Source: Stereum hirsutum FP-91666 SS1
Lineage: Eukaryota; Basidiomycota; Agaricomycetes; Russulales; Stereaceae
Length of the DNA stretch: 64,000 bases
Reading direction: 5' to 3'
Assembly: GCF_000264905.1 (NCBI RefSeq)
Contig: NW_006763145.1
Coordinates: 397,505-461,504, forward strand
The first letter of the stretch is position 1. Each line of letters starts with the position of its first letter. Shown here one piece after another: positions 13,800 to 61,482 of this stretch. Made by a program: the position numbers and the translations under genes. The notes below the pieces were generated by a model. That model saw only the letters and a program-made list of their open reading frames with translations, ran no database searches and was not told the DNA's origin.

Positions 13800-15353
13800 A
13801 GCTTGACAAAAGAATTCACTGTATGACGGTTCGTGGTTCGCGGTATGCTTCGCGGGTTGCAATTGCTTTTGGCCCGAGGAAGAGTAATGCACCCGTGGTG
13901 GGAATCATGTCTGGGGCTGGGTTGTCCGTAGACGATGATGTCAACGAACGGCGAAGAGTCAAATCACCTCAGAGTCCAAGCTCGGCTCCAAATCCAAGTT
14001 AGGGTCCCAGTCCTTGACTCAGTCATCGACGAGTGGATCAGCTAGCGCTGAAATCGTAGACGACGGAGACATGAGCCACTAGTCGTGGTCTCAAACGCTC
14101 AAAGGTCTGCGCATCACCGGCACTGTCACGACTACATACAAACAGCACTTCCTGTCTCGCAGCGTCCACTTCACAGGCTGACTCGACTAGAAGAGATCTA
14201 TGGAGGTTCGGACTTACCGAGTTTCATGAGTTACATAGAGGGGCTGGCCGATCAATGGGTCGAGTTAGTGCAGTCCGGGAACTCGAACGGAGGCGGTGGA
14301 GGAAGAATGTTGCGGAATAGAAATGTCGCCCGTCGAGTCGATGAAGCGAGATGTCTTGGAGTGCACAGTTTGTGCTGTGTACTGTGTACTGCGTGTATGA
14401 TGGATAGATGGTGGATAACGGCGGGTGAATAAGGACAGAGTCTTCCTAGGTGAGAAGCCCATTAGTCGGTGAAGCTTGATGTTTTGGACGGGTCTGCTGT
14501 GTACTAACTGCGCGCATTGATGATGGGTGGGGGAAAGTTAGGATCAGGTATCAGTGCATTTTACTGGGGATAAACGAAAAGGAAAGGTAGGCAAGAATGA
14601 CGTACGAGAAAAGGTCGAACATACGACCGGAGTCGCTGGGATTGGAGATCGTGTGTTCAAAAGATCGAGTTGATATATTGCCAGCACACGAGGTGCTGGC
14701 GAAACAAGTCTTGCATAGAATATAATACTCTACGCTGAAAAGTTCCATACAACAAACGCCTTGCAAGGACTAAGAAAGCATCTATTCCGCAAATCAAGCT
14801 ACGGAAAGACAAACTGAGAAGAGAGAAGAGATGTATGTCCCCAAACTACGAGCCCAGCACTCACCCCATGCCCAAAGGAGGACAGGAAACTGAGCTCAAC
14901 TCTATAGAGACGATACGCACGAGCGTCCTTTGACCCGCGTACTTCGGAACGAAGCACATCGGAAGGACGTGGTTCGTGCGCATAATGTTCCACGACCGTA
15001 ACAGGTCTCCATACTGAGATTGTACCAACCGTGAGGAAGGTGGGATGGAGACCTTGACTGGGTCGTGGGGATGCAGCGAGAAATAAAGAATACGAGAGGT
15101 TCACAAGTGGGTTCAAAACAATATGGGATTGAGGGTACGTGGACGAGTGGAAGAAAAAAAGGGAAATGACGGCTCGGCTATATACCCCCGAATTGAATCT
15201 CCGCCCGAACTGGATGCGTCCCCGTCATTACGCGCTCTTGGCCTGTTCCGTACCAGCGCGATAACCGTCTTCTACTCATTGTCACCCGTATTTTCACCTA
15301 ATTTTCACCGACGATGGCGCAGTGGGGACAAGGCCAGGGCCAGGCAGGGTACC
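13800..15353 (+). repeat. Segmental duplication, copy B, containing the intersectin promoter
   Basis: Partner of 1940-3534, with the same order of shared blocks. This copy continues into the full intersectin-like gene, so it is likely the parental locus. The block at about 14830-15065 is nearly identical to 3005-3240 and also resembles the inverted copy at 56845-57150. Confidence 0.85.
15176..15190 (+). promoter_or_regulatory. TATA-like sequence of the intersectin-like gene
   Basis: GGCTATATACCCCC lies about 130 bases before the ATG at 15314 and is preserved in the duplicated copy near 3355. Position and sequence fit a TATA element, but no transcript start is known. Confidence 0.45.
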
Positions 15354-18300
15354 AATACCCAATGCAGACCGGCTTCCCCGGCCAAAACCCGTCGTTCCAA
15401 CAGCCCCAACAGACAGGCTTTCCAGGCCTGCAAGCGCAACCGACAGGCTTCCCCGGCCAACGACCGCCTTTCCAACAACCTCAGCAGACCGGATTTCCAG
15501 GATTGCAGCCCCAGCAGACCGGCTTCCCCGGCATGGCCGGAGGCTACGCGCAACAGCAGCGCCCGCCTCCGCCGCCGGTCCCGCCTCTCCCCTCGAGCGG
15601 ATTTCTCGGCGCTCAGCAGCAGCAGCAGGCCCAGAGCCGATTCATGTCGCCTTCGCCGTCTGGGATTATGCCCCAGCAGACCGGGTTCCCTGGTGCTGGA
15701 GGCATGGGCGGTGGAGGGCTGCAGCCTTTGGTTCCCCAGATCACGGGCTTCGTCGACCCGAGGCTGCAGATGATGGCGAGCACGTTCTTGCCCGCGAACG
15801 CCTCCGCGCCGTACAACCCCGCTGGCGCGCCACAGCTGCTTCAGCCCCAGCAGCAGCTCGGCGGGCTCTCGCTCCAGCAGAGCTTTCAGCAGCACAATCA
15901 GGAGGTCAAGGGCACCAGTGCGCCGAGGGTGCCGTGGGCGCTGTCCCAGGGCGAGAAGAAGAGCTATGATAAGATATTTAGGGCTTGGGACGCGGCGGGG
16001 ACGGGCTTTATTGATGGGAGCACCGCGATTGAGGTCTTTGGACAGAGTGGGCTGGATAAGAATGATCTCGCGAGGATTTGGTGAGTTTCTTTGCTTGTTC
16101 AAGGCTCTGCCGCGTCTATACGCCACCACGCAAGCGTATGCCCCTGTCGACCGATATTCCGTCTCCTGCGTTTCTACTTTACGCGTTTGCGGTCTCTGGG
16201 ACTTGTCCCACGCCACATCATCCTGAGTCTCGCCATCAATGGTGTAGCCTCTACCACAAACATCCATATTTCTATCTTCAACCATTTTGTCCTCATCATA
16301 CATCGCTCATGACTGACCACCACCTTGTTCCACAGGACACTCGCCGACGGAGACAACCGCGGTAAACTCAACATGGCCGAATTCCACGTCGCCATGGGTT
16401 TGATCTACAGAAGTAATTATTCTCTCATTTCTTTACGCGCACGTCTCCCCATCCATCAACTCTTCATCAAGTGAACTTTGCCCCATTCGCACCCATCTAC
16501 CCACCCACCCACCCATCCGTCCATCTATCCACTCATATCTCTGCATCCGTCCGCCCACCCTTCTCCCTGATCCAAAACAACTAACAATCCCTCTTCACCC
16601 AACCTCCCGACCCTAGAACTCAACGGCAACGAAATCCCCGACACCCTCCCCCCCGAGCTCATCCCCCCCTCGCACCGCGACCTCGACACCTCCGTCGACT
16701 TCCTCAAAGGCCTCCTCAAAAACGACGCCACAGCCCGCGCACGCTCCCCCTCCGCGCTCGACCCCTCCATCCCCATCTCGCGCCTCAAAGAACGTTCCTT
16801 CAACTCTTCTGGTGCACCAGGCGCCGGCTCGCGCCAAGACGCCACGGTGTATAAACATAGGGAGGATGATGCGCCGCCGGGGGGGTATTATACGCCCCGG
16901 AGTAGGCATTTGGATCGCAGTGCGGTGAGGACGGATAGGGAGAGGGAGGGAGGAGGGGGAAGGGGCGATTTGGAGGAGATGAAGAGGGCGTTGGAGGGGA
17001 CTGCGAAGATGCTTGATCGGGCTGGAGAGGAGTCACGGAATCGGACGGAGGAGGACGAGAAGCTGGATAGGGAGATGGAGGATTTGAGGTATCGCGTGAA
17101 GCGGGTGCAGGAGGATTTGGAGTATGCGGCGAGGAGTGGACGGAAGGGGGCGAGGGAGGACGAGGAGAGGAGGAGGTTGGAGAGGGAGTTGATGGGGTTG
17201 TTGTATGAGAGGATTCCGGAGGTGGAGAGGAAGATTGAGGAGAGGGAGGTGAAGAGGGAGAGGGAGAAGAGGGAGTGGGACCGTGAGAGGGATAGGAGGA
17301 ATGACAGGTTTGGGAGGTATGATGATCGCGACCGCGACCGCGATTACCCCAGCTATTCGTCGTCCTCGAGGAACGAGGACAGACCGCGGTACGACCGCTA
17401 TGAGCGAGACAGAGACAGGGACTCTCCCTATGACCGTGACCGCGACCGCGACCGTGGATACGACAGAGACCGCGATCGTGACCGTGACGCTCCCTCAACC
17501 CGTTCCCCACCCCCCGCCCCACCCGCTCCCTCTCTCTCCTCAATCTCCAAACCTCCCCCCGCCCCACCCGCGCCCTCCTCCGCCCCGCCCCTCCGCTCTA
17601 CCACGCCCTCCAACAAAGCCATGACCCCCGAAGAGCGCAAGGCCTTCATCCGCGCCGAGGCCCAACGGCGGATGGAAGAACGCATGGCCGCTCTCGGGCT
17701 CCCCGTTCCCAACGCTGCAAGCTCACCGCGCGTAGACACGAGTGTGGAGGATAGGTTGGCGAGCGAGAAGAGGGAGGCGGAGGAGAAGGCGAAGGAGGCG
17801 GAGAAGGCGGCGGAGGAGAGGGAGAGAGCGAGGAGGGAGAGGTTGGAAGGTGAAAAGGCGATCAAGGAGGGCAGGTCGCCTTCCTCTACTGCACCGACTC
17901 CGCCTGTGAGTGCGGTTGGGAAGGCGGCGCCTCCTCCGCCTGTTAAGCCGAGGGCTCCGGCGCCACCGCCACCGAGGAAGAGCGCGCTCGTGAATCGGGG
18001 GGCTCCGGCGCCTTCGCCTGTGGCACCTACTCCGCCCGCTGCTGCTGCACCTACTCCTCCAGCGCCGGCTCCTGTCAAACAAGAAGATCCGGAAGAAGTA
18101 GCTTTCCGTGCGCGTGAGGAACGGCTCAGGAAACAGAGAGAAGAGCGGCTCGCACGTCAACGACAGCTCGAGGCCGAAGAAGCGGAAGAGGCTCGACGTG
18201 AACAACAAGAAGCCGAAGAAGCGGCCCGACGAGCTCAGGTGGACGAGAAAGCGGAAGAACAGAGGAGGATCAAGGAGGAGAGGGAGGCGAAGATCAGACA

Positions 18301-21300
18301 GATGGAGGAGGAGGAGGCGGAGGAGGCGAGGAGGGCGGAGGAGGAGTTTCAGAGGAGGAAGGAGGCGAGGTCGAGGGCTTCGACGCCTAAGCCTCCGAGT
18401 TCTGCTCCTCCTGCTGCGGCTGCTGGTGTGGCTTCCCCGCCGCCACCGCCGCCTCCTCCACCCCCGCCGGTTATGGCGAGCCCACCGTCGGAGAAGGGAA
18501 AGAATAATCCGTTCAATCGGCTTGGTGGTGGTGCTGCCGCCGCCCCCGCGGCACCCACTCCCCCGGCTCTGAACGGTTCGAGCACCAATCCCTTCTTCAA
18601 ATCCAACCCTCCCCCCACTTCATCCGCATCTCCCTCCATCCCCGCGCCCCCGAAATCGCCCGGCCCTCCCCCCGTCAAGACTCCGTACACGACCGCTCCC
18701 GGTGCGGGCGACAGCAGCGACGACGACTGGGGCGACGTGCGCGAGAAGGACGACGACGAGAGTTCGGACGATGAGCTGGACTCGAGCAGGGATACGAGGA
18801 ATAAACTCGCGCAGCAGTTGTTCGGGAGCATCTTACCGCCCGCGAGGCCTCAGTCCGCTGCTCCTGGTGGTGGTGGTGGTGGTGGAAACGCGAGCACGCC
18901 AAAGCAGCCGTCGACGCCTGTTGCGCCGACGCCGCCGCCTCCGCCTCCGAGCGCGCCTCCTGCTTTCAATCCCGACATTAGCAGCGGTGGTGGAATTCCG
19001 CCGCCGCCGCCTCCCCCTGCGCCTCCGATGGCCCCAATGGCCCCTCCCCCTCCCATGGCACCTCCCGCTCCCTCAGGACCTGGACCAGCACCAGCCGCCG
19101 CGGGGGGTCGTGGCGCGCTCCTGAGCGCGATACAGGGCGGAGCGAGGTTGAGGAAGGCGGTCACGAATGATCGCAGTGCGGCTCCGGTGGGAGGGAAGGT
19201 TTTGGGCGATGCGGCACCGCCGGAGCATATTAAGGTGAATATACCCGTTGCGCCGCCTTCGCCTCCGCGTGCGCATGTGCCTGTTCCGGATGTTGGGCAG
19301 GGACAGGGAGAGGAGGAGGGGATGGGGATGGGGATGTCGATGTCGAGGGAGACGACGAATTCGACGAATAGGCAGAGTGTGGATTGGTATGCTGGTTTGG
19401 CGGCGGATAATGATCATTCGAGGGCGATGACGAGGGAGACGACGTTGGCGAGTATGAATGAGGAAGAGGAGGAGGGGGATGTGGGGAATGGGCATGCGAA
19501 TGCGGTGCCGCATATTCAGGTCGCGCCGGCGGAGGGTGAGGAGAGCGACCCGTTGGAGGATGTGGATAGGGGTGTGGAGTATAGGGTGAGGTCGTTGTAT
19601 GCATACGAGGGGCAGAGGGCGGAGGATCTATGTGAGTTTTTCTTTTTTCGACTGTCGTGTGCATGAACGCTGACTGTCGTTGTGAATAGCTTTCGGAGAG
19701 AACCTAATTCTGACGGCGCATCCGTCCAAGTCTGGAGGTGATTGGTGGTACGGGACCGTCGTACGCGATGGAAAGTCCGGATTCTTCCCTAAGACATACG
19801 TGCAGTCTGTCGATGTCGGTGCGTAGATGCCTCCAATATCTCCCTCCTTCTGTATCTTGATCTTCGTCTTCCTTTGCAGTGAAAGCCCGCGCCGCGTACT
19901 CATACGCTGGCGCCGGTGATGCCGACGAGCTCCCCTTCGTCGAAGGCGACGTCCTCTCCATCGTGGACCAAAGCGCAGATGACTGGTGGAAGGCGGAACA
20001 AGGCGGAGTGGTCTTCATCGTGCCCGCGGCGTATCTCGAAGTCGTAGAGGGTTAGTTTTGTCAAATACTCATCGTCATCATCCCCATCTTGAGTGCTCCT
20101 GTTCACATTCTTTTATTGGTCGGCTGGGAACACACAGGCTAAAATACGCTCTTTTTTTTTTGTTTCTTTTTCTCCCTCCTCGCTCGCTCCTAATCATCAT
20201 CATCATCTTTCTTGTTTCGAATGAACAATGAATGTTATACCTCGAATACAAAAAATGCGGGATGCTTCCGTTTTTTCACCTCTTTGATTCTGTGCATTGT
20301 GACCCTCAACTTGCTGGACATTTTCAGGTCTCGGAAGCACAAATAATGAGGCCTCCAATACGGTGATTCTCACGGCTAACCCTGACGCACAAGCACCCAA
20401 CAGAGACGCCGTTCCATCCTTTCCTAACCAGGCCATGACAGAGTCCGGGAATGAGCCCGTCTCGAACCATGTCCAGGGTACGGGGTCCTATAGCGACGAT
20501 GAAGAGGACGACGACACGGAGTCGGATTCGGAGTACCACTCGTTCGACGACTCGGATACGGACACCAACGACGCCCATGCTCAGGGGGACGAAGAAAAGC
20601 GTAAGGCCGAGCGCGAGGCGCGGGCTCTCGAGCGGCAGAGGGTGCTGGAAGCCGCAGGTCTAATCGTGAAACAGGACGGTCGGAAACCCCCTCCCAGGCC
20701 CGTGAGACGAAAAGCGCTCTTGGCCACTACACCCGCCAAAACGCACCGCAAACCTCCGGCGCCACCCCAGACTTCCGGTCCTTCGAGCATCCCGCAAGGA
20801 CAAGAAGAAGATTTCGACCGACGGTTGTCGCAGATATCTGCGTCGTCCGAATTTTCTGGTAAGGAATTGCCTCCTGTCCCCGCTCCGGACTCCCCGCGCT
20901 CGCCCGAGGCTGGAGAGGATGCGGGCACTCGTCTGGATGATGCGTATGATCGGTATGAAGCGTTTAAAGCATCCATGGCGGATAGCAATCGCTGGTCTAT
21001 GGCTTCCACCACCACCGATGGCCTCAATGCTGGTGGTAGCGGTCCTAGTACCGTCCCTTCTTCCCCTGCTCCCTCGCTCTCCCTTCAGCCTAGTCGGTCC
21101 CATGACACGACGCTGTCGGCCCATTCGAGGACGGGGAGCGATACGACCTCTCGGTCGTATGGGTCTTCGTTGTTCCATTTGCTAGGGAGGAGCAGGACGC
21201 CTGTAGATGAGGCTGCAGAGAGGAGGACAATGCCGGTGATTTCGGGTCCTATTTTGAACGGGGACTTGACCTCGCCCTCTCGCGAAGGTGCGAACAGCCC

Positions 21301-41330: not shown

Positions 41331-41649
41331 GGAACACTTCAAAGGCGTTGTCAATTTGGTGGGCTTCTCGATATCCGGAAGTTCTCCAAATAATAGACGG
41401 AGAGCAAAATACGTCCCAAGAAAAAACGGGCACGGTGAGTACACTGGCCAGGGGGGATGCTCGAACCAAAGACCATCGCGAACAAAGTTTAAGGAACACC
41501 TCAAAGATTTATCGGCTCGGTGGACCTGTCCCTCAACAGTGTCCGGAAGGCCTCAAAAACAATAAACCACGAGTAAAATGTATACCAAAACTAATAGTTC
41601 CAGACAACCTGGCCAACGTGGGGATCGAACCCAAGACCTTCGCGTTATT
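41331..41649. repeat. Tandem duplication of about 160 bp overlapping the tRNA-Ile 3' half
   Basis: Unit A (41331-41492) and unit B (41493-41649) both begin GGAACAC(T/C)TCAAAG. They share CGG(C/T)-type and CCGGAAG landmarks, an AA-rich centre (GAGCAAAATACGTCCCAAG versus GAGTAAAATGTATACCAAA), and a terminal CTGGCC...GATC/GCTCGAACC stretch. Unit B ends inside the intact tRNA gene; unit A ends in a truncated version of it. Confidence 0.65.
41445..41480 (-). pseudogene. tRNA-Ile 3'-half relic
   Basis: TGGCCAGGGGGGATGCTCGA and the following CCAAAGACCATCGCG parallel the T-arm and acceptor 3' strand of the intact tRNA at 41610. The anticodon arm, D-arm and 5' acceptor strand are missing. Confidence 0.6.
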
Positions 41650-41683
41650 AGCACGACGCTCTAACCAGCTGAGCTAGTCGGCC
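41610..41683 (-). tRNA. tRNA-Ile (anticodon AAT)
   Basis: 74 nt on the minus strand. Acceptor strands GGCCGAC and GTTGGCC pair, discriminator A. D-arm with A-box TAGCTCAGCTGG, anticodon loop CTAATAA (anticodon AAT), and T-arm with B-box GGTTCGATCC. No intron. All four stems form. Confidence 0.93.
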
Positions 41684-41888: not shown

Positions 41889-42095
41889 TCACTGCTTGCT
41901 CACTGGAGTACTGTTAGGTTCAGGTTCAGCGGATTCCAATTCATTCCACTCCTCTTCTGTGGCATCCTGAAGCGATTCGTAGTACACCGCCAGTGTCAAT
42001 TGCCATTCACCTTTCCCACGATGTTGTAAGCCCAAGATGACGAGATGTCCCTCCCGTAGTTTATCCTTCACGGACGTCACGGTGTTTTCTCCTCC
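41889..42095 (-). pseudogene. 3' part of a host gene split by the Plavaka transposon
   Basis: Reads GGENTVTSVKDKLREGHLVI, then GLQHRGKGEWQLTLAVYYES and a Glu-rich end ...NSTPVSKQ before TGA at 41889. It has no start or splice acceptor of its own. It continues exactly in frame from the exon fragment at 48748-48875 if the element 42098-48745 and one AT are removed. The joined gene (50065 to 41889) would encode 430 aa. Confidence 0.75.
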
Positions 42096-42097
42096 AT

Positions 42098-42119
42098 CAG
42101 AACTCTTGGAGATTCCTGA
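42098..42119 (+). repeat. Left terminal inverted repeat of the Plavaka element
   Basis: 22 bp identical to the reverse complement of 48724-48745. Preceded by AT at 42096-42097. Confidence 0.88.
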
Positions 42120-42240
42120 GCCGTCCTGAGCCGTCCTGAGTCGCCCTGGTGGCTGTCCCGTTGGTGCTTCCGCCGGCTCAGGGTGTCGTCAGGCTCTCTC
42201 AGGAGCGTCAGGAGCGTCAGGGCGAGGCTCTCTCGGATAA
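42120..42240. repeat. Left subterminal repeat arm
   Basis: Successive GTCCTGAGCC, TCCTGAGTC, CTCAGG, GTCAGG and GAGCGTCAGG motifs in both orientations. CACTA-type elements carry such clusters as transposase or accessory-protein binding sites; binding here is inferred. Confidence 0.6.
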
Positions 42241-42301
42241 GACCTCTGATAAGCCTTTGGATAAGTTAATTAGATTATCAATTGGAGTTATGTATACAAA
42301 G

Positions 42302-45300
42302 CTACGCTGGGCCACACTCGTGCATATGGTAATCGCTGTATCGATTCAAGTAGAAAGAATCAAAGGCTTCGTGTGAGAAAGAATGGTCAAAGTCAATAGG
42401 TAAAAAGCCCTCCCCTGTAACTCCAATAAGGTGACACGAACGGAAAACAGCGTCTAAAGAAATGATATCAAGTGTACGACGGCCAGCGTCGTCTACCTCT
42501 GGTTCCAAAATCCACATCCCCGTCACGGCATCCGGGTGGTCATCTACAGGAAGAAACCATTCGACAAGAGCAGAAGGATATCCAATATCGTCAAGCGTTA
42601 ATCGGATAAAGCGGACCACCCGCGCCACTAATAACCCACCCATGGTGTCATCCTCGCCACCAACCTGAACGAGCATGGTATCGCGCCGCTCATATTGCCC
42701 ATACCATGACTGATTACACCTGATCACCTCTGCATGCATACCCCAAGGTCCTGCCTCCTCGCTTGGAGCATAAAACGCAGTGCGTGCACATTTGAAGATC
42801 CCAATTTTCGTGAACTTTGAAATGAAGGGAAGGTCGTCAATGTCGGCGTCAGCGGCGGGAAGATCATCGTCGGGGTAAATCTGCGAATAGAGGTGGCGCC
42901 GAAGAAGGAGCCAGAGATCATCTAGCGGTCGATTAAGCTCAGCAGCAAGATCTTCGATATCCACGCTCCGAGCTTCCAAATCATGCCTTGTCAGAACTGC
43001 GATGGCCCATCAGGACAGATAAATAGATAGACATACCTGGCCTATTCGCTAGCGATACAACCAGCGCGGAGTACGGACCTGCCTCATCAGCAACGTCCCG
43101 ATCATCCTCACCATCCAGATCCGCAAGGAGCTGGCCATGCACCGTGACGGGAAGCATACCGCGTCGCCCATACTCTGCTCGTGCAGCGGCCAATTTCGCC
43201 AAGCGGGTATTGGTCTGAAGAATTTGGATGAGGGGCTCATCCTTGTTCGACCCGCGCCATGGATCTTTGACAGCCGTGATGTGCTTCGACTCTGTAATAG
43301 ACGAACAGAGGCCGTATGGGGAGCCGAATAATGTGATACCGTACACGTAGTGGAGCAAAGCATGTTGACGCGGGAGCGCGAAATCAGCGCGGACTCCGGT
43401 TTCGATGAAGATGGAACGTAGGTCGAGAAAGCGGTCGAGAGTCTCCTTCATAATCGCGAGGCATTTTGTGTCGTGAGATGTGCGACGGGCCATGTAGCAG
43501 AAGTCCATGAACGTGGCGATTGCTTGTACCATCTTGTCTGGAACATGGCCGCGGATCACGGGTATAAAGACCTGTTTACACGCTGTGAGATTCCTAGCGC
43601 TGAAAATAGATAAAGTAAGACCAACCCTCATAAGTGCCTTAGTATCATCGCCGGTCCACCTCTCATAGTTTCGGCCTTCTGCAAATCGTCGAATTCCCGG
43701 GAACGTGGGGACTGAAGAAACCCTAGGAGAGAAAAAGTAAGCGTGAGCATTGAAGAACAGATGGACGCTGTACAAGGACTCGGATCGACGTACTTCCGGT
43801 CAATATCGTCCATGATACGTTCGGCATCCGCATACCCGTGTTCGCTCTCGATATACTGATGCACCCAAGCAACAAGGTGATCTTTAAATGTTCCTTTGAT
43901 CATTTGATGTAGGAGGTCGGGTGATAGGAGCTTGTGGATGTCGGCGCGGGGAAAGTGATCGGTGAAAGGCTAACGTCGCCGCCGTGAGCACAAATAAATA
44001 AAAAAGACAGAAGAATGCAGAAAAGAGGACGTACAGTGACGCCCGCGACAATCCCAAATGCATCCCATAAGATGCCAGCATCATGCGCGAATGCATCCCG
44101 TGCAGCAGCCCGATGCTCGCGAGACCGCGGACAGCCAGCGCCGTTGAGCGGTGGTCGTTCAAGGCATCTATTAACGAAGCACTTCAGTACCTGATACAAA
44201 TTGGAACGGTCAAAGGGAGAGTTACTTTGGGCACCAGCCTTGGACGATACCCGCAAGATCCACTTGCTCCGGATAATCTGCAATGAATGGACCAATACTA
44301 AAAATGATACGGCGATAGTGGCCATCACAGCACCTCAAGACAATCGGGCGGGACATCGCATCTTTCAGCGGCGAGAGAATGCGTGCGATGGCGGCATGAT
44401 AAAGTCGCTTCTTGAAGAGGCGAAATTCCGCCGTGTCGCTCTCTCCTCTAGCCGCTAGCCATGTGTACAGAATGTGAGATGGGGTGGAAACGAAGAAATG
44501 AAAGGAACGTACTTTTCGGGACAGCCAGAAAGGCTAACGGCACAACGGCTTCCCCATGTGCCCTACGCACATCGTTCCACACATTACCCACGGATGCATA
44601 CAGCGGATGGAACTCTTGGTTACCGGTAGCGACGGAGACAACCGTCTTGTCCGCCCCAAGAATGATCGGGACAAGCATTGGGCCATGTGTGGCGGGGTCC
44701 GTTGCGACCTTGTCCTGGTGCTGACTGTAAGCTTTCGATCGAAGATGGAATCAAAGAAACGTACACATTCGTCCCATGCCCACTGGCCAGACATAAAATT
44801 CGAGTAACGACGGTTTTGAGGAGTGGTGAACCTGGAAACAGGTAGAAAACCAGATGAACAAATGAGTCAACGATGGTTAAATGGTTACTCACTCCTGATA
44901 TGCCTTGTAGTCCCACCTCTTCGCGAACTCCGAACTCGAAACCATGTTTGTAAATACAGTTCGAGGATCGCGAGCATGTATAACGAACGTCCGTCGCTTC
45001 CAGGATGGTGAATCGGCGGCGACGGGGCCCGTGTAACGAATGGCAAAAGTGTGCCATGTTGTTTCGCCGTACGGAATGGCGTCGATGAACTCCAGAAAGT
45101 GGTCGTGGTCGTCGAAGATCGCGGGGTCGTCGTTACCGTCGATTTCATTCTTCTCACGCCAGATGCGGAGGAGAGTGTTGATGTCGTCAATGGAAGTCTT
45201 CTTCTTCTCAAATTTGAGCTCACAGAACTCAAATGAGGGTTTGTCGGGGTAAGGTGCCCAGTTAGGCCTCAAATCTTCTGCGGGTGGGGCGGTGCCCGGT

Positions 45301-45529
45301 GGTAGAAATACACCGTCAGCATTGCAGGGAAGTGCTTAGAATCAAATGTGTTAGAATGAGGTCGCCAGATATGAGTATTGGCTGACTGCTCACCATTGAT
45401 GAGCGGGTGTGAAAAGATTGTTGATTGGGGTGGATTCGGCTTCGGGTGGCGGTGATAACGAACGTTATGGGATGCGAAAGACCGCCGAGTAGGATAAGAG
45501 GAAGAACAGAAACGACAGTGAAATCCCAT
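42302..45529 (-). CDS. Plavaka-family transposase
   Basis: A multi-exon gene (about ten exons). It starts with a C2H2-like zinc finger (FHCRFCSSSYPTRRSFASHN), joins through GTGAGC...CTAAG to LPCNADGVFLPPGTAPPAED, and then reads FVIHARDPRTVFTNMV, RRYSNFMSGQWAWDEC, LVPIILGADKTVVSVATGNQ, LYASVGNVWNDVRRAH, PFIADYPEQVDLAGIVQGWC, FGSPYGLCSSITESKHITAV and a C-terminus near FYLNRYSDYHMHECGP. These blocks are the hallmark order of Plavaka (EnSpm/CACTA-like) transposases, which cut at the terminal repeats using an RNase H-fold DDE core. All junctions I could place are in phase and no stop interrupts the model. Some introns are very short (36-45 nt, near 44750 and 43035), so a few boundaries are approximate. 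The divergent neighbour starts at 45768. Confidence 0.88.
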
Positions 45530-45767
45530 GTTTGGAGCGGGAAGCGAAGGGTGTATCGAACAGTGTGGTAGTGGTTCACGGTAACGGTGACAAGCCTGTA
45601 TGATACTGTCAATATGCTCGAGGGGTGGCCATCGCGGAGTTGGAAGTGCGATCCGTGGCGGCGTTATCTATACAGGCAGTCAAAATAAGGTTTACGCTTT
45701 TGCACAAGGAGACGGGGACTTCAATGGCAAAGACGTACCTGGATACTCTCTTTTCGGATGAAACACC
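45530..45767. promoter_or_regulatory. Divergent promoter region of the transposon
   Basis: 238 bases separate the start codons of the minus-strand transposase and the plus-strand second gene, so both promoters must lie here. No clear TATA box is seen. Confidence 0.45.
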
Positions 45768-48416
45768 ATGTCTGATCGTCTTCAGTCTCTGCGTCCTACA
45801 CCTCGCACGGCTCACGAATCTGCTCCCTCTGATGAACCTTCCACAAAGTCCTCTACTCATCGTGTCGGTCGCAAACGTGGCGTATCCCAAGTCGAACCCC
45901 CAAAGTCCAATAATCAGCCCAATTCTACAACATCGAGTACAAACGTCAAAAAAGCACGCACTGCGAAGACGAATGACTTAGACGCACCTGGAACGCATAC
46001 TAGTCAGCCCACCAATCCCAGCAAACGCACTCGTCCGTCAAATAACGAACATCCCGCATTGAGGCCTGGTATATTGACGAAGCTACATGAGACGAGAGAG
46101 GAGATAACCGCTCGCACTGCAGGCAGGCGAGCTGAAGACAAGGCAAAGAGGGAAGCTAGGAAGGCAGAGGAGGCAGAGAAGCGAGAGAGGGAGGAAGACG
46201 GGAAGGCGAAAATTGCGGCGGCGATGAATGCGAGCGAGCAGGAGTTGAAGGACCAGGAGGAGATAAACAAGGTTCCGTTCGGTGGGAACGTCGACGTTCC
46301 AGCGTTTAACGGCGGATTTGACGCTCGCTCCGTGCGAAAGGATTCCGCAAATGCTCGGAACGTGAGTTTCTTCGTTGTCTGTTTTTGACACGCATACATC
46401 TTACCTCCCCGACGACAACTTCAGTCTCCTCTGACCGCCACTGAAAAGAAGAAAGCACGTACCCATGAGTTTCTTTCCGACATTTCAGAGTATCGACAGA
46501 AGGGGAAGGGTGCCGTTGCGCCTAGCACTCGACCGTGAGTCTTTCTCATTGCTAGCGTGTCGTGTCTTGTTCTGAACACCTTCAATACTAGCTCCACGCC
46601 GACAGCTCGTCCTCGCACCGCTCCATCAGTGACGACCCAGCCGAAGAAGACTCTCAATGGTGACTGGCTCTCAAAGATAAAACCACTCCAGTACGACAAC
46701 CACCTAGGTGCGGCATCTCCATCGACTAGTAAGAAAGCCTCGACGAGCAAAGCCAAAGGAAAGCGGGCGGCGAAGGGAGCGACAGTGGACTCGGATATTG
46801 AAGATGACGAGTCAGATGCCCTGAAGGAGAAGGAGATGGGGATCGAGAATGAGATGCTGGAGAAGTTTGACAGGGACGCTGCTGGACTCGGTCAGGTGCG
46901 TCGACTATCACATTCGACTTCACTCCTTCGAGTAATCCCGTTTGTTTCTAGTTCCAGGTAGACATCTTTGACGTTAACAATGATACCTTGAAACCCAAGA
47001 TTGAGCCTAAGCACAAGAAGGAGAAGACCAACCGTCGTCCGAAATCTGTGGTGCCCCCGAAGAAGTCTCGCGGTTTTGAGACCATGGAGGAGTGGGCTCG
47101 AGACAATTGGTGGGTCCTGAGGGGAACCATTTGTCACAGATATGGTGAGGATAGTCGACCCTTCAAGCTCGGAGATGGCAGAGATTGTCGATTCGCCCGC
47201 GATGTCGAGGTCACAGTCCATGTCGCGGTACCTAGTGAAGCAGACTACGAGGTTGTTTCAACAAGCGACAAGGTCTATGGCCGAGTATGTCTATTCAGCT
47301 CTCCTTTTATGAGACGTGGCCCACCTTGTTGTCCTTGCTCGCTTACATACTACGATGTTGGTTGTAGTTGCGCCAGGGGATCTACGAGTGGCGTGACGAC
47401 TTCTACAACACCGCGGTGAAACTCGTCGACCAAAAACTGACGCCGTTGCAGAAGAAGCTGGGTGTCGAGAGAATGGAGGACTGGGTTCGAAGAGCACTGT
47501 CGGCAAATGATGGAGCGGCATACTGGTCTACCCCTGGTACTGAGGTGAGTCCAAGCCCCGAGGCGTCGAGACGCGTGATACCCACTTGTGTCTTTGCTCG
47601 CATAGACTACACCGGCGCGAGGATCCCTCCGCTCTGAGTATATTGTGGCAGCGTTCGCCACTCACCTCAAAAATATCAAACACTCTGCTCGAGAGCCAGA
47701 GCAGTATCCAACCGGGGCCTTAGCCCTGTCTTGTGCTGCTGTGAGTACACTAGCATTGACTCTTCGGGCCACTCGCAACTGACATCAAACAGGTTCAACG
47801 TTGTTTCGAAGCTTGGTTACCCGGGGTGCCACCTAAAAGCTACCCTCCATTCACCGAGGTGAACGTATCCAGCTTGGTCGAGGACTACGCTACTGGACCA
47901 TCCATTCAAGCTCTTGTTGACAAGCCCCATCGCTTTGACGATCTAATAAAGGCAGCCTTTGAGAAGCTCGATACCCCCGAACCATCTTCCAAATCAGTCT
48001 CCGCTCGAAACAAGGCATCTACCCACAAGGCCGCCGTCGTTATCGAACCAAGTAGCGAGCCAGAGCACGATGAACAGGACATGGAAGAGGACGAGGAGGG
48101 TTTGACGAATAATGGAGAGGCCGATGACAACGGTGATGTGCTCGTGAACGATAGTGAGGATATTGGCAAGGAGAGAAAGGACATGGGTGGCGACGAGATT
48201 GTGATGAAGGCAGAGGATTTTGGTGACGAGTACGTGTTCGGAGATGACTTCCATGATGACGGCGAGAATTTTGGTGGGCCGACGGGTGAGAGTACATTGT
48301 CTCTCGAGGTTGATGGACTCGAAATCATCTCACTGCCAGCGACTCGTAGCGGTTCTTTGGAGCCACAAGAATCTCGAGGACCGTCGTCCCCCTCATCATT
48401 TCTTTCTATTGATTAA
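45768..48416 (+). CDS. Second gene of the Plavaka element (accessory or cargo protein)
   Basis: Seven exons: 45768-46361, 46425-46534, 46592-46895, 46952-47284, 47368-47544, 47606-47740, 47793-48416; 758 aa, all in phase. The N-terminus is Ser/Thr/Pro-rich and basic (GRKRGVSQ, KRTRPSNNE), followed by a charged helix (KAKREARKAEEAEKRERE). A central folded part contains TMEEWARDNWWVLRGT and QGIYEWRDDFYNTAVKLVDQ, then SEYIVAAFATHLKNI and PTGALALSCAAVQRCFEAW. A long acidic tail follows. I recall similar proteins recurring in agaricomycete genomes but know no function. Its location between the transposon termini suggests a TnpA-like DNA-binding role or cargo; that is inference. Confidence 0.78.
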
Positions 48417-48609
48417 ACCCTCGTACATGTTTATATCCTCATTCTCGACTGTACACGGCCCTTTAAGCCTCACTTGTATTCCTCAAATGTTCTGATTGTC
48501 CTCTCTATTCTACTCCCCTCCCTTGTCTCGCAACCCCCACAATGCACTCGGAATCATTGGAATTTATGTAAATAATTTAATAGATAGAATTTATGTTGTC
48601 TCCGATAAG

Positions 48610-48723
48610 TGGCAGGCCGCCCTGACCGCCCTGACCGGTCCTGAGCAACCTGACGCGGGAATACTCGGAACTGGCTGCTTCGCCCAGGACGCGTCAGGAT
48701 CTATCAGGACACGTCAGGGCGGT
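48610..48723. repeat. Right subterminal repeat arm
   Basis: CGCCCTGACCGCCCTGACCG, GTCCTGAGC, CGTCAGG and ACGTCAGGGCGG motifs mirror the left arm in inverted orientation. An AT-rich stretch (48560-48600) follows toward the interior. Confidence 0.6.
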
Positions 48724-50065
48724 TCAGGAATCTCCAAGAGTTCTGATGTCCGTGGTGCTGGCCGAGCCAGAGACTCTTGATCCTGGGTTTTAAAACGCTT
48801 TCTAGGAATTCGCGGAAGGAGTTTCTCTGATCGTATTGATCGTGATCAAAACCAAATGAAAACTCCGTGAGCGGTCTGAGCATAGACAGCAGGCTCAAGC
48901 TTGCCGCTCACCAAGATAGTTTTACGCCATGCGCTCAGTTTTTCGCTCAGTTTTTCGGCAAGCTCACCGCGCCGAATGTTGTACTGGACGATAGGAACAT
49001 CGAAACTTTGCTGTCCAACACCAAGGTCGAGGCCCGGCTCAGGCTTTTGATTAAAACATCATTTAGTCAACTGAGCCACCATAACCCGAAGAATCTCTTA
49101 CCTGGATGTGAACAGTGATACCCCAACTTCTACCGGACTTGGTGGCAATTTTCTTGAGGCTATGCTTTGGCCAGTTGACATTTGCATTCCAGTCCCGCAA
49201 CGTTTCGAGTAAATGTCTTTTCCACCACCGGTGATCGCTCACAAAGAAACCTTCTACATACTTAGTCTCATAGTGTGCGCCTGCTACTCTTCCTTGGATC
49301 TTATGTTGAAAGCAGATTGCATCCGGGTCCTCTGGGGTAGGAAAAGGCGAGGGAGCACCTCGGTCCTGGGCTATAATCATAATATGGCGGTGTCTCATTG
49401 GGTTGTCGTGTCTGTCGTAAACCTCATATGCGATCACAGTGTCACTACTGGATCCCGCAGAGGAAGCGGAATTCGAACGGTCTCTGCTGGTATTGCTATG
49501 CGGTGGTGACGATGGCATGTGGGGAATGAGTTGATTGGAAGAGCCTGTACTACTGCTTCGCCGGGCATACGTCCCAGGGATGTGCTGTGTGGCAGGAAAA
49601 GCTGCGCCCCACCCTCCTTGAGACGCGTGAGGGTGAGGGGACTGTTGGTAAGGCATCACCGGAGGACTGCCTGGGTATGGTCCAATATGATGTACGTTGT
49701 ACCTGGCATCTGCTATCGGATTGCTCGAGTTGGATCCGGGAGAATGAACTACTGCTCCACTAAGACTCGGAGAAGAGAAAAATCTGGGCGAAGCACTGTA
49801 AATAATGCCGTAGGGTGTAGCCGGAGTAGACGGAATCCATTCATTGTTTCGCAATGGGTACTCGGTGTGGGGCGTTTTCGGAGATGACGGTCCATTCGCG
49901 AAGGCAGGCAACGGCACAGTGTTCCTATTGGAGGATTGGAAAGGGGGATACTGATGGGATATGTCAGCAGTGAATAACTATGCGTTCACAAGCGTCATTA
50001 TGGGGGCTTGAGCTTACTGTAGGAGTGTGTGTGGGAAACGAATATGGTACGCTTCGCTGAGCCAT
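48704..50065 (-). pseudogene. Host gene, 5' part, truncated by the transposon
   Basis: Exons 50065-50018, 49950-49102, 49043-48985 and 48875-48748, then the frame runs into the right terminal repeat and stops at 48704 (375 aa). The N-terminal half is Ser/Pro-rich; the folded part reads YEVYDRHDNPMRHRHIMIIA, FFVSDHRWWKRHLLETLRDW and NWPKHSLKKIATKSGRSWGI, then PLTEFSFGFDHDQYDQRNSF and ESVLKPRIKSLWLGQHHGH. I recognise no family. The interrupted exon resumes at 42095 in the same frame. The third intron uses GTACAA...CTCAG (109 nt); without it the frame would stop at 48846. Lost from the current product: 68 C-terminal residues, replaced by about 13 from the transposon end. Confidence 0.72.
48724..48745 (-). 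repeat. Right terminal inverted repeat of the Plavaka element
   Basis: Perfect 22-bp inverted match to 42098-42119, followed by AT at 48746-48747. Confidence 0.88.
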
Positions 50066-61400: not shown

Positions 61401-61482
61401 AGGCGCCACCAGGGCTCGAACCTGGGTTACAGGAAATCACGTGAATCAGAATCCTGTGTACTAACCACTATACGATGGCGCC
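61401..61482 (-). tRNA. tRNA-Gln (anticodon CTG) with a 10-nt intron
   Basis: 82 nt. Acceptor stem GGCGCCA/TGGCGCC is perfect. Anticodon stem CAGGA/TCCTG closes a loop TTCTGAT after removal of a 10-nt insertion (TTCACGTGAT) one base 3' of the anticodon, the standard eukaryotic tRNA intron position. The B-box is GGTTCGAGCC. Confidence 0.88.

Follow-up and report, generated by a model that had tools for sequence, protein, structure and literature searches.

CACTA elements combine subterminal repeats with a two-gene layout. In the Agaricomycotina, the closest described system is PlavakaB, for which the available part of the published account gives CATCA..TGATG ends and target duplications of 2 or 3 bp (PMC12730594). 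One published basidiomycete transposon insertion was, like the one reported here, shown by an unoccupied allele; as far as the accessible text of that report goes, it differs in that an intact transposase gene is absent, the duplication is 9 bp, and the element is neither called Plavaka nor placed in an exon. For Marasmius oreades, the available portion of a further study describes one Plavaka-related deletion, which was not an excision (PMC9674265).

We analysed a 64,000-nt stretch of Stereum hirsutum FP-91666 SS1 (NW_006763145.1, 397,505-461,504; hereafter the window), part of an assembly of 45.98 Mb in 38 contigs. A complete Plavaka transposon is located within the last exon of a host gene, and this gene is disrupted (Table 1). 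Almost certainly, an intact gene encoding 428 aa received a PlavakaB element at a TC in its last exon; the TC was duplicated, and the genes of the element are still open. The insertion is of an ordinary kind yet very clean, combining a complete element, exact ends, a duplication and an unoccupied relative. It can therefore serve well to mark recent activity of Plavaka, and it provides a naturally truncated member of an unknown gene family.

Table 1 Features of the occupied locus, in window coordinates.
Feature	Position	Strand	Basis
PlavakaB-type DNA transposon, 6,654 bp	42095..48748		inverted repeats, unoccupied relative P0002, ends of other copies, transposase
Left terminal inverted repeat, begins CATCAGAACTCTTGGAGATTCC	42095..42139	+	sequence
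Right terminal inverted repeat, ends ..GGAATCTCCAAGAGTTCTGATG on + strand	48704..48748	-	sequence
TC target site duplication, left copy	42093..42094		sequence and other pairs of ends
TC target site duplication, right copy	48749..48750		sequence and other pairs of ends
Host gene, 5' part, residues 1-361	48749..50065	-	exons 50018-50065, 49102-49950, 48985-49043, 48749-48875
Host gene, 3' part, last 67 residues and stop	41889..42094	-	junction sequence and P0002
14 element codons and TGA stop, read by occupied host gene	48704..48748	-	sequence; TGA 48704-48706
Transposase gene, 10-exon model, 897 aa	42302..45529	-	frames and conservation; predicted splice sites
Transposase exons 1-5	45394-45529, 44893-45334, 44765-44831, 44513-44720, 44226-44454	-	predicted
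Transposase exons 6-10	44035-44167, 43794-43969, 43626-43722, 43037-43571, 42302-42972	-	predicted
Second gene, 7-exon model, 758 aa	45768..48416	+	predicted splice sites; sub-threshold DUF6532
Second-gene exons	45768-46361, 46425-46534, 46592-46895, 46952-47284, 47368-47544, 47606-47740, 47793-48416	+	predicted
Subterminal CCTGA/TCAGG words, 8	42095..42294		outer 200 bp, word count
Subterminal CCTGA/TCAGG words, 8	48549..48748		outer 200 bp, word count

The terminal inverted repeats comprise 45-nt arms that are 89% complementary, with the outermost 25 bases identical, and the element terminates in CATCAG..CTGATG. A sequence-only reading of this locus had described a complete Plavaka in a host exon whose frame could be restored by deletion, and was right about the insertion, the disruption and the open frame. 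Its ends (42098-48745, CAGAACTC..GAGTTCTG) and its AT target duplication were misplaced: the arms extend to CATCAG at 42095 and CTGATG at 48748, the AT belongs to the inverted repeat, and TC lies directly outside both arms. With the latter ends, the joined host coding sequence is 1,287 nt (428 aa and a stop) rather than the 1293 nt and 431 codons given previously. Restoration of the frame had been taken to fix the ends, but models duplicating AT and TC, six bases apart, are both in frame. In the 3' flank, one of the three frames stays open through 67 codons (the other two stop after 4 and 9), and because this frame fits either set of ends, 6 nt apart, the frame argument is weak. A restored reading frame alone cannot fix transposon ends. 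The two models read differently across the junction, as QHHGHGGENTV (430 aa) with AT and QHHGGENTV (428 aa) with TC, and predict different unoccupied sites on the host strand (CACCACGGACATGGAGGAG and CACCACGGAGGAGAAAAC, respectively).

Both flanks of the element are parts of one minus-strand gene, and P0002, a protein of the relative, runs through both. The three predicted host introns (49951-50017, 49044-49101 and 48876-48984) were placed correctly in the earlier reading, each being bounded by GT..AG. The family of this gene is not known to Pfam, again as that reading had it; at E values up to 1, the sole match was DUF6348 (E 0.044, 14.2 bits, under the cut-off of 27.7). A transcript initiated at the host promoter would run through 14 element codons, one more than the approximately 13 replacement residues proposed before, and reach a stop in the terminal repeat. 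The predicted product of the occupied gene is 375 aa, i.e. 361 host and 14 element residues with the last 67 host residues lost, and host function has presumably been lost with them. A search of the assembly at E ≤ 1 recovered only four exon pieces from the same locus, and neither a paralog nor another allele of the host gene.

To find relatives, the peptide of the AT model was used as the query, chosen so as not to favour TC. This returned one protein, P0002 (112 aa), of three candidates. The junction in P0002 reads QHHGGENTV; two residues are missing relative to the AT-model peptide, the TC-model protein aligns without a gap, and 107/109 residues were identical to the host exon, aligned through the junction. 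The gene of the relative is thus unbroken at the site occupied here. A homolog stopping at the junction had been named as the outcome that would count against an insertion; P0002, the sole homolog found there, continues across. The start codon of P0002, an ATG, falls within the final bases of intron 3; its first residues are read from this intron, so the underlying sequence is genomic or unspliced. The 5' part of the host protein, used as the query, returned only P0001 (1,805 candidates; 263/272 residues identical), whose end reads into intron 2, like the frame in the window itself. The ORFs P0001 and P0002 lie on separate contigs (longest 3,128 and 1,437 bases), possibly from separate organisms, and were the only host homologs found by searches at E ≤ 0.001 and E ≤ 1 in a collection that is possibly poor in fungal genes. 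The predicted structure of P0002 (mean pLDDT 52.1) was left unused.

We further investigated the terminus of the element across the assembly. The pattern CATCAGAACTCTTGGAGAT, allowing up to 3 mismatches, gave 42 matches versus 8 for the pattern read backward. Twenty-six of these were paired by hand into 13 facing pairs, leaving out 16 (one unpaired end on contig C14 and 15 three-mismatch matches). An identical dinucleotide was found directly outside CATCAG in 9/13 pairs (TC, GG, TA, TG, GA, CC, AT, AG and TG; P = 8e-9 at 1/16), whereas unmatched left/right combinations of ends agreed in 8/156. A 3-bp duplication was also considered and rejected, as no pair (0/13) had an identical trinucleotide. 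The four remaining pairs were TG/AA (C1), TT/GA (C4), TA/AC (C5) and CC/GG (C7), and the ends on C5 and C7, which are 7.9 and 15.4 kb apart, may be mispaired. As the copies were chosen by a pattern containing CATCAG, the evidence lies in the varying duplication and not in the common CATCAG.

Elements sharing this terminus were located on contigs C1, C2, C4, C5, C6, C7, C8, C13, C14 and C18 (ends L030-L052). In 9 of the 13 hand-made pairs the ends were 1.9-3.2 kb apart, and within the 1,519 bases inside each end, similarity to the window element was confined to the outer ~150 bases. Non-autonomous copies had a longest stop-to-stop frame of 247 codons (9 ends, 1,519 bases each). L038/L044 and L040/L050 shared 99.3-99.9% identity across about 1,520 bases and so have probably moved recently. 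Aligned over 6,929 columns, the copy on C18 (L027) showed 69% identity with the window element. Another, distinct Plavaka element, complete at 5.0 kb (L058:2911-7942; ends CATCAGCAAAACCC.., GA duplication) was found via its transposase, not the terminus pattern, and also begins CATCAG.

These data bear directly on the placement of the ends. An element bounded by CAG/CTG, with AT duplicated and a host protein of 430 aa, would preserve the host frame equally, and AT does adjoin both ends so defined, but this placement is scarcely credible: P0002 does not have its extra HG, AT would have to be duplicated at all 13 paired places, and chance would have to account for a second matching dinucleotide, three bases outward, in 9/13. 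The PlavakaB ends in the available text of PMC12730594 also disagree with it. Incorrect joining of the flanks and element during assembly is very improbable too, given intact repeats with a matching duplication at both ends, flanks that form one gene in the relative, and the presence of the host gene at one assembly locus only.

A different possibility is that the occupied gene is alive, with either the 375-aa product or splicing that removes the element being functional and the element being tolerated as a new 3' end. Indeed, the frame is open over the 361 codons upstream, and an open frame runs from the left repeat into the 3' flank (99 codons stop-to-stop, 41889-42188), such that an acceptor inside the element could rejoin the two. 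However, this would demand a 6.65-kb intron compared with 44-109 nt for the modelled introns, and 65/67 of the lost residues are the same in P0002; we regard a living gene as unlikely. Under the favoured reading, i.e. insertion of a PlavakaB element into an intact gene, the element would have jumped into the TC dinucleotide and TC would have been duplicated in the process. Most simply, this happened after the split from the close relative, exact excision from the relative instead of later insertion here being the less simple course of events. Movement would be by cut-and-paste, judging from the kind of element (CACTA/EnSpm-related), and the element may still be mobile.

The element carries an open transposase gene and a divergently transcribed second gene, also open, and the two stand head to head. 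Both models were made by hand, replacing an automatic model that was wrong in places. The spliced transposase model is devoid of internal stops; its 54-nt intron at 43572-43625 is in frame and open, and hence uncertain. The protein matched PF18759 over the full profile (positions 1-325 of 325, E 3.2e-113, 378.7 bits), identifying the element as a Plavaka. Like the PlavakaB of Agaricomycotina in the available part of PMC12730594, it combines a Plavaka transposase with CATCA..TGATG termini and a 2-bp duplication, the latter apparent from TC here, the 9/13 pairs and the unoccupied relative. Of the motifs that the same text uses as a criterion, an H motif and D/D/E among them, CPKC was seen by eye in the 897-aa model. 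In contrast to the PlavakaB described there, no TET/JBP match was found in the scanned frames and models of the window element, and that account, as far as it is available, makes no mention of a second gene that is divergently transcribed and matches DUF6532 below the threshold. Comparison of the window and C18 copies gave 85% identity for the transposase over 895/897 codons (dN 0.087, dS 2.4). These values are rough, as dS is saturated and some of the matched segments extend into C18 introns.

The second protein fell below the Pfam cut-off for DUF6532 (24 bits), scoring 19.9 bits as the whole 758-aa protein and 22.9 as a core piece. This was also the case for the C18 copy (17.0) and the core piece from a further Plavaka locus, L062 (23.8), both taken from automatic gene models. 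The seven-exon model of the C18 second gene has an open frame of 777 aa, and its protein was 60% identical to that of the window over 757/758 codons (dN 0.29, dS 1.5, both rough). This suggests that purifying selection acted on both element proteins as the copies diverged. In L062, the second gene is divergently placed beside a Plavaka transposase, and its product shared 27% identity with the window protein across 343 columns. By tblastn with the window protein, a relative was detected in 2 of 11 Plavaka loci (L027 and L062, among L027 and L058-L067, 10 kb each), and none in the complete element of L058.

Searching the assembly for DUF6532 itself returned seven places (two C5 pieces merged; one of the seven below the cut-off), and missed the second genes of the window, C18 and L062, whose single exons are too weak. 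In relation to 21 hand-merged Plavaka places, 3/7 DUF6532 places were within 8 kb and 4/7 within 15 kb (P = 1.5e-5 and 1.3e-6, a coverage estimate that assumes an even spread and is overstated if transposons cluster), and 5/7 were within 20 kb. Two of the seven, both on C8, were on a contig with no Plavaka match, and most Plavaka places had no nearby DUF6532 place. Among the four places within 15 kb, three had genes diverging as in the window, and the pair on C12 ran the same way. In the literature searched, DUF6532 is named in a single paper, in one list with Plavaka (PMC8955403), and no paper mentions the two together with a transposase or an accessory role.

CCTGA/TCAGG words numbered 8 in the whole 6,254-bp interior versus 8 in each outer 200 bp, where successive words of a run are spaced by 9 to 11 bp. 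This subterminal array is a plausible candidate binding array. Overall, the element resembles CACTA/EnSpm in its CA..TG ends, short duplication, dense subterminal repeats and two genes. Given its sub-threshold resemblance to DUF6532 and the DUF6532 places near some Plavaka transposases, the second protein may be an accessory protein. We judge it slightly short of an even chance that a divergently transcribed gene of the DUF6532 kind belongs regularly to one Plavaka branch, its product binding the CCTGA repeats like the CACTA second protein. If so, the uncharacterised Pfam domain DUF6532 would represent an accessory protein of transposons, and were the second gene a general Plavaka partner, this domain would gain a role. 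This possible link makes the second gene a more interesting part of the locus than the insertion.

Several other features were observed in the window. A tRNA-Ile (AAT) gene lies on the minus strand at 41610-41683, ~200 bp downstream of the host gene stop, and a tRNA-Gln (CTG) gene, also on the minus strand, at 61401-61482. The block from 15001 to 20000 is GC-rich (0.56-0.65 per kb versus about 0.50 in its surroundings) and contains a 939-codon frame, proline-rich and with charged coiled-coil stretches, which we take to be reminiscent of a Pan1-like protein.
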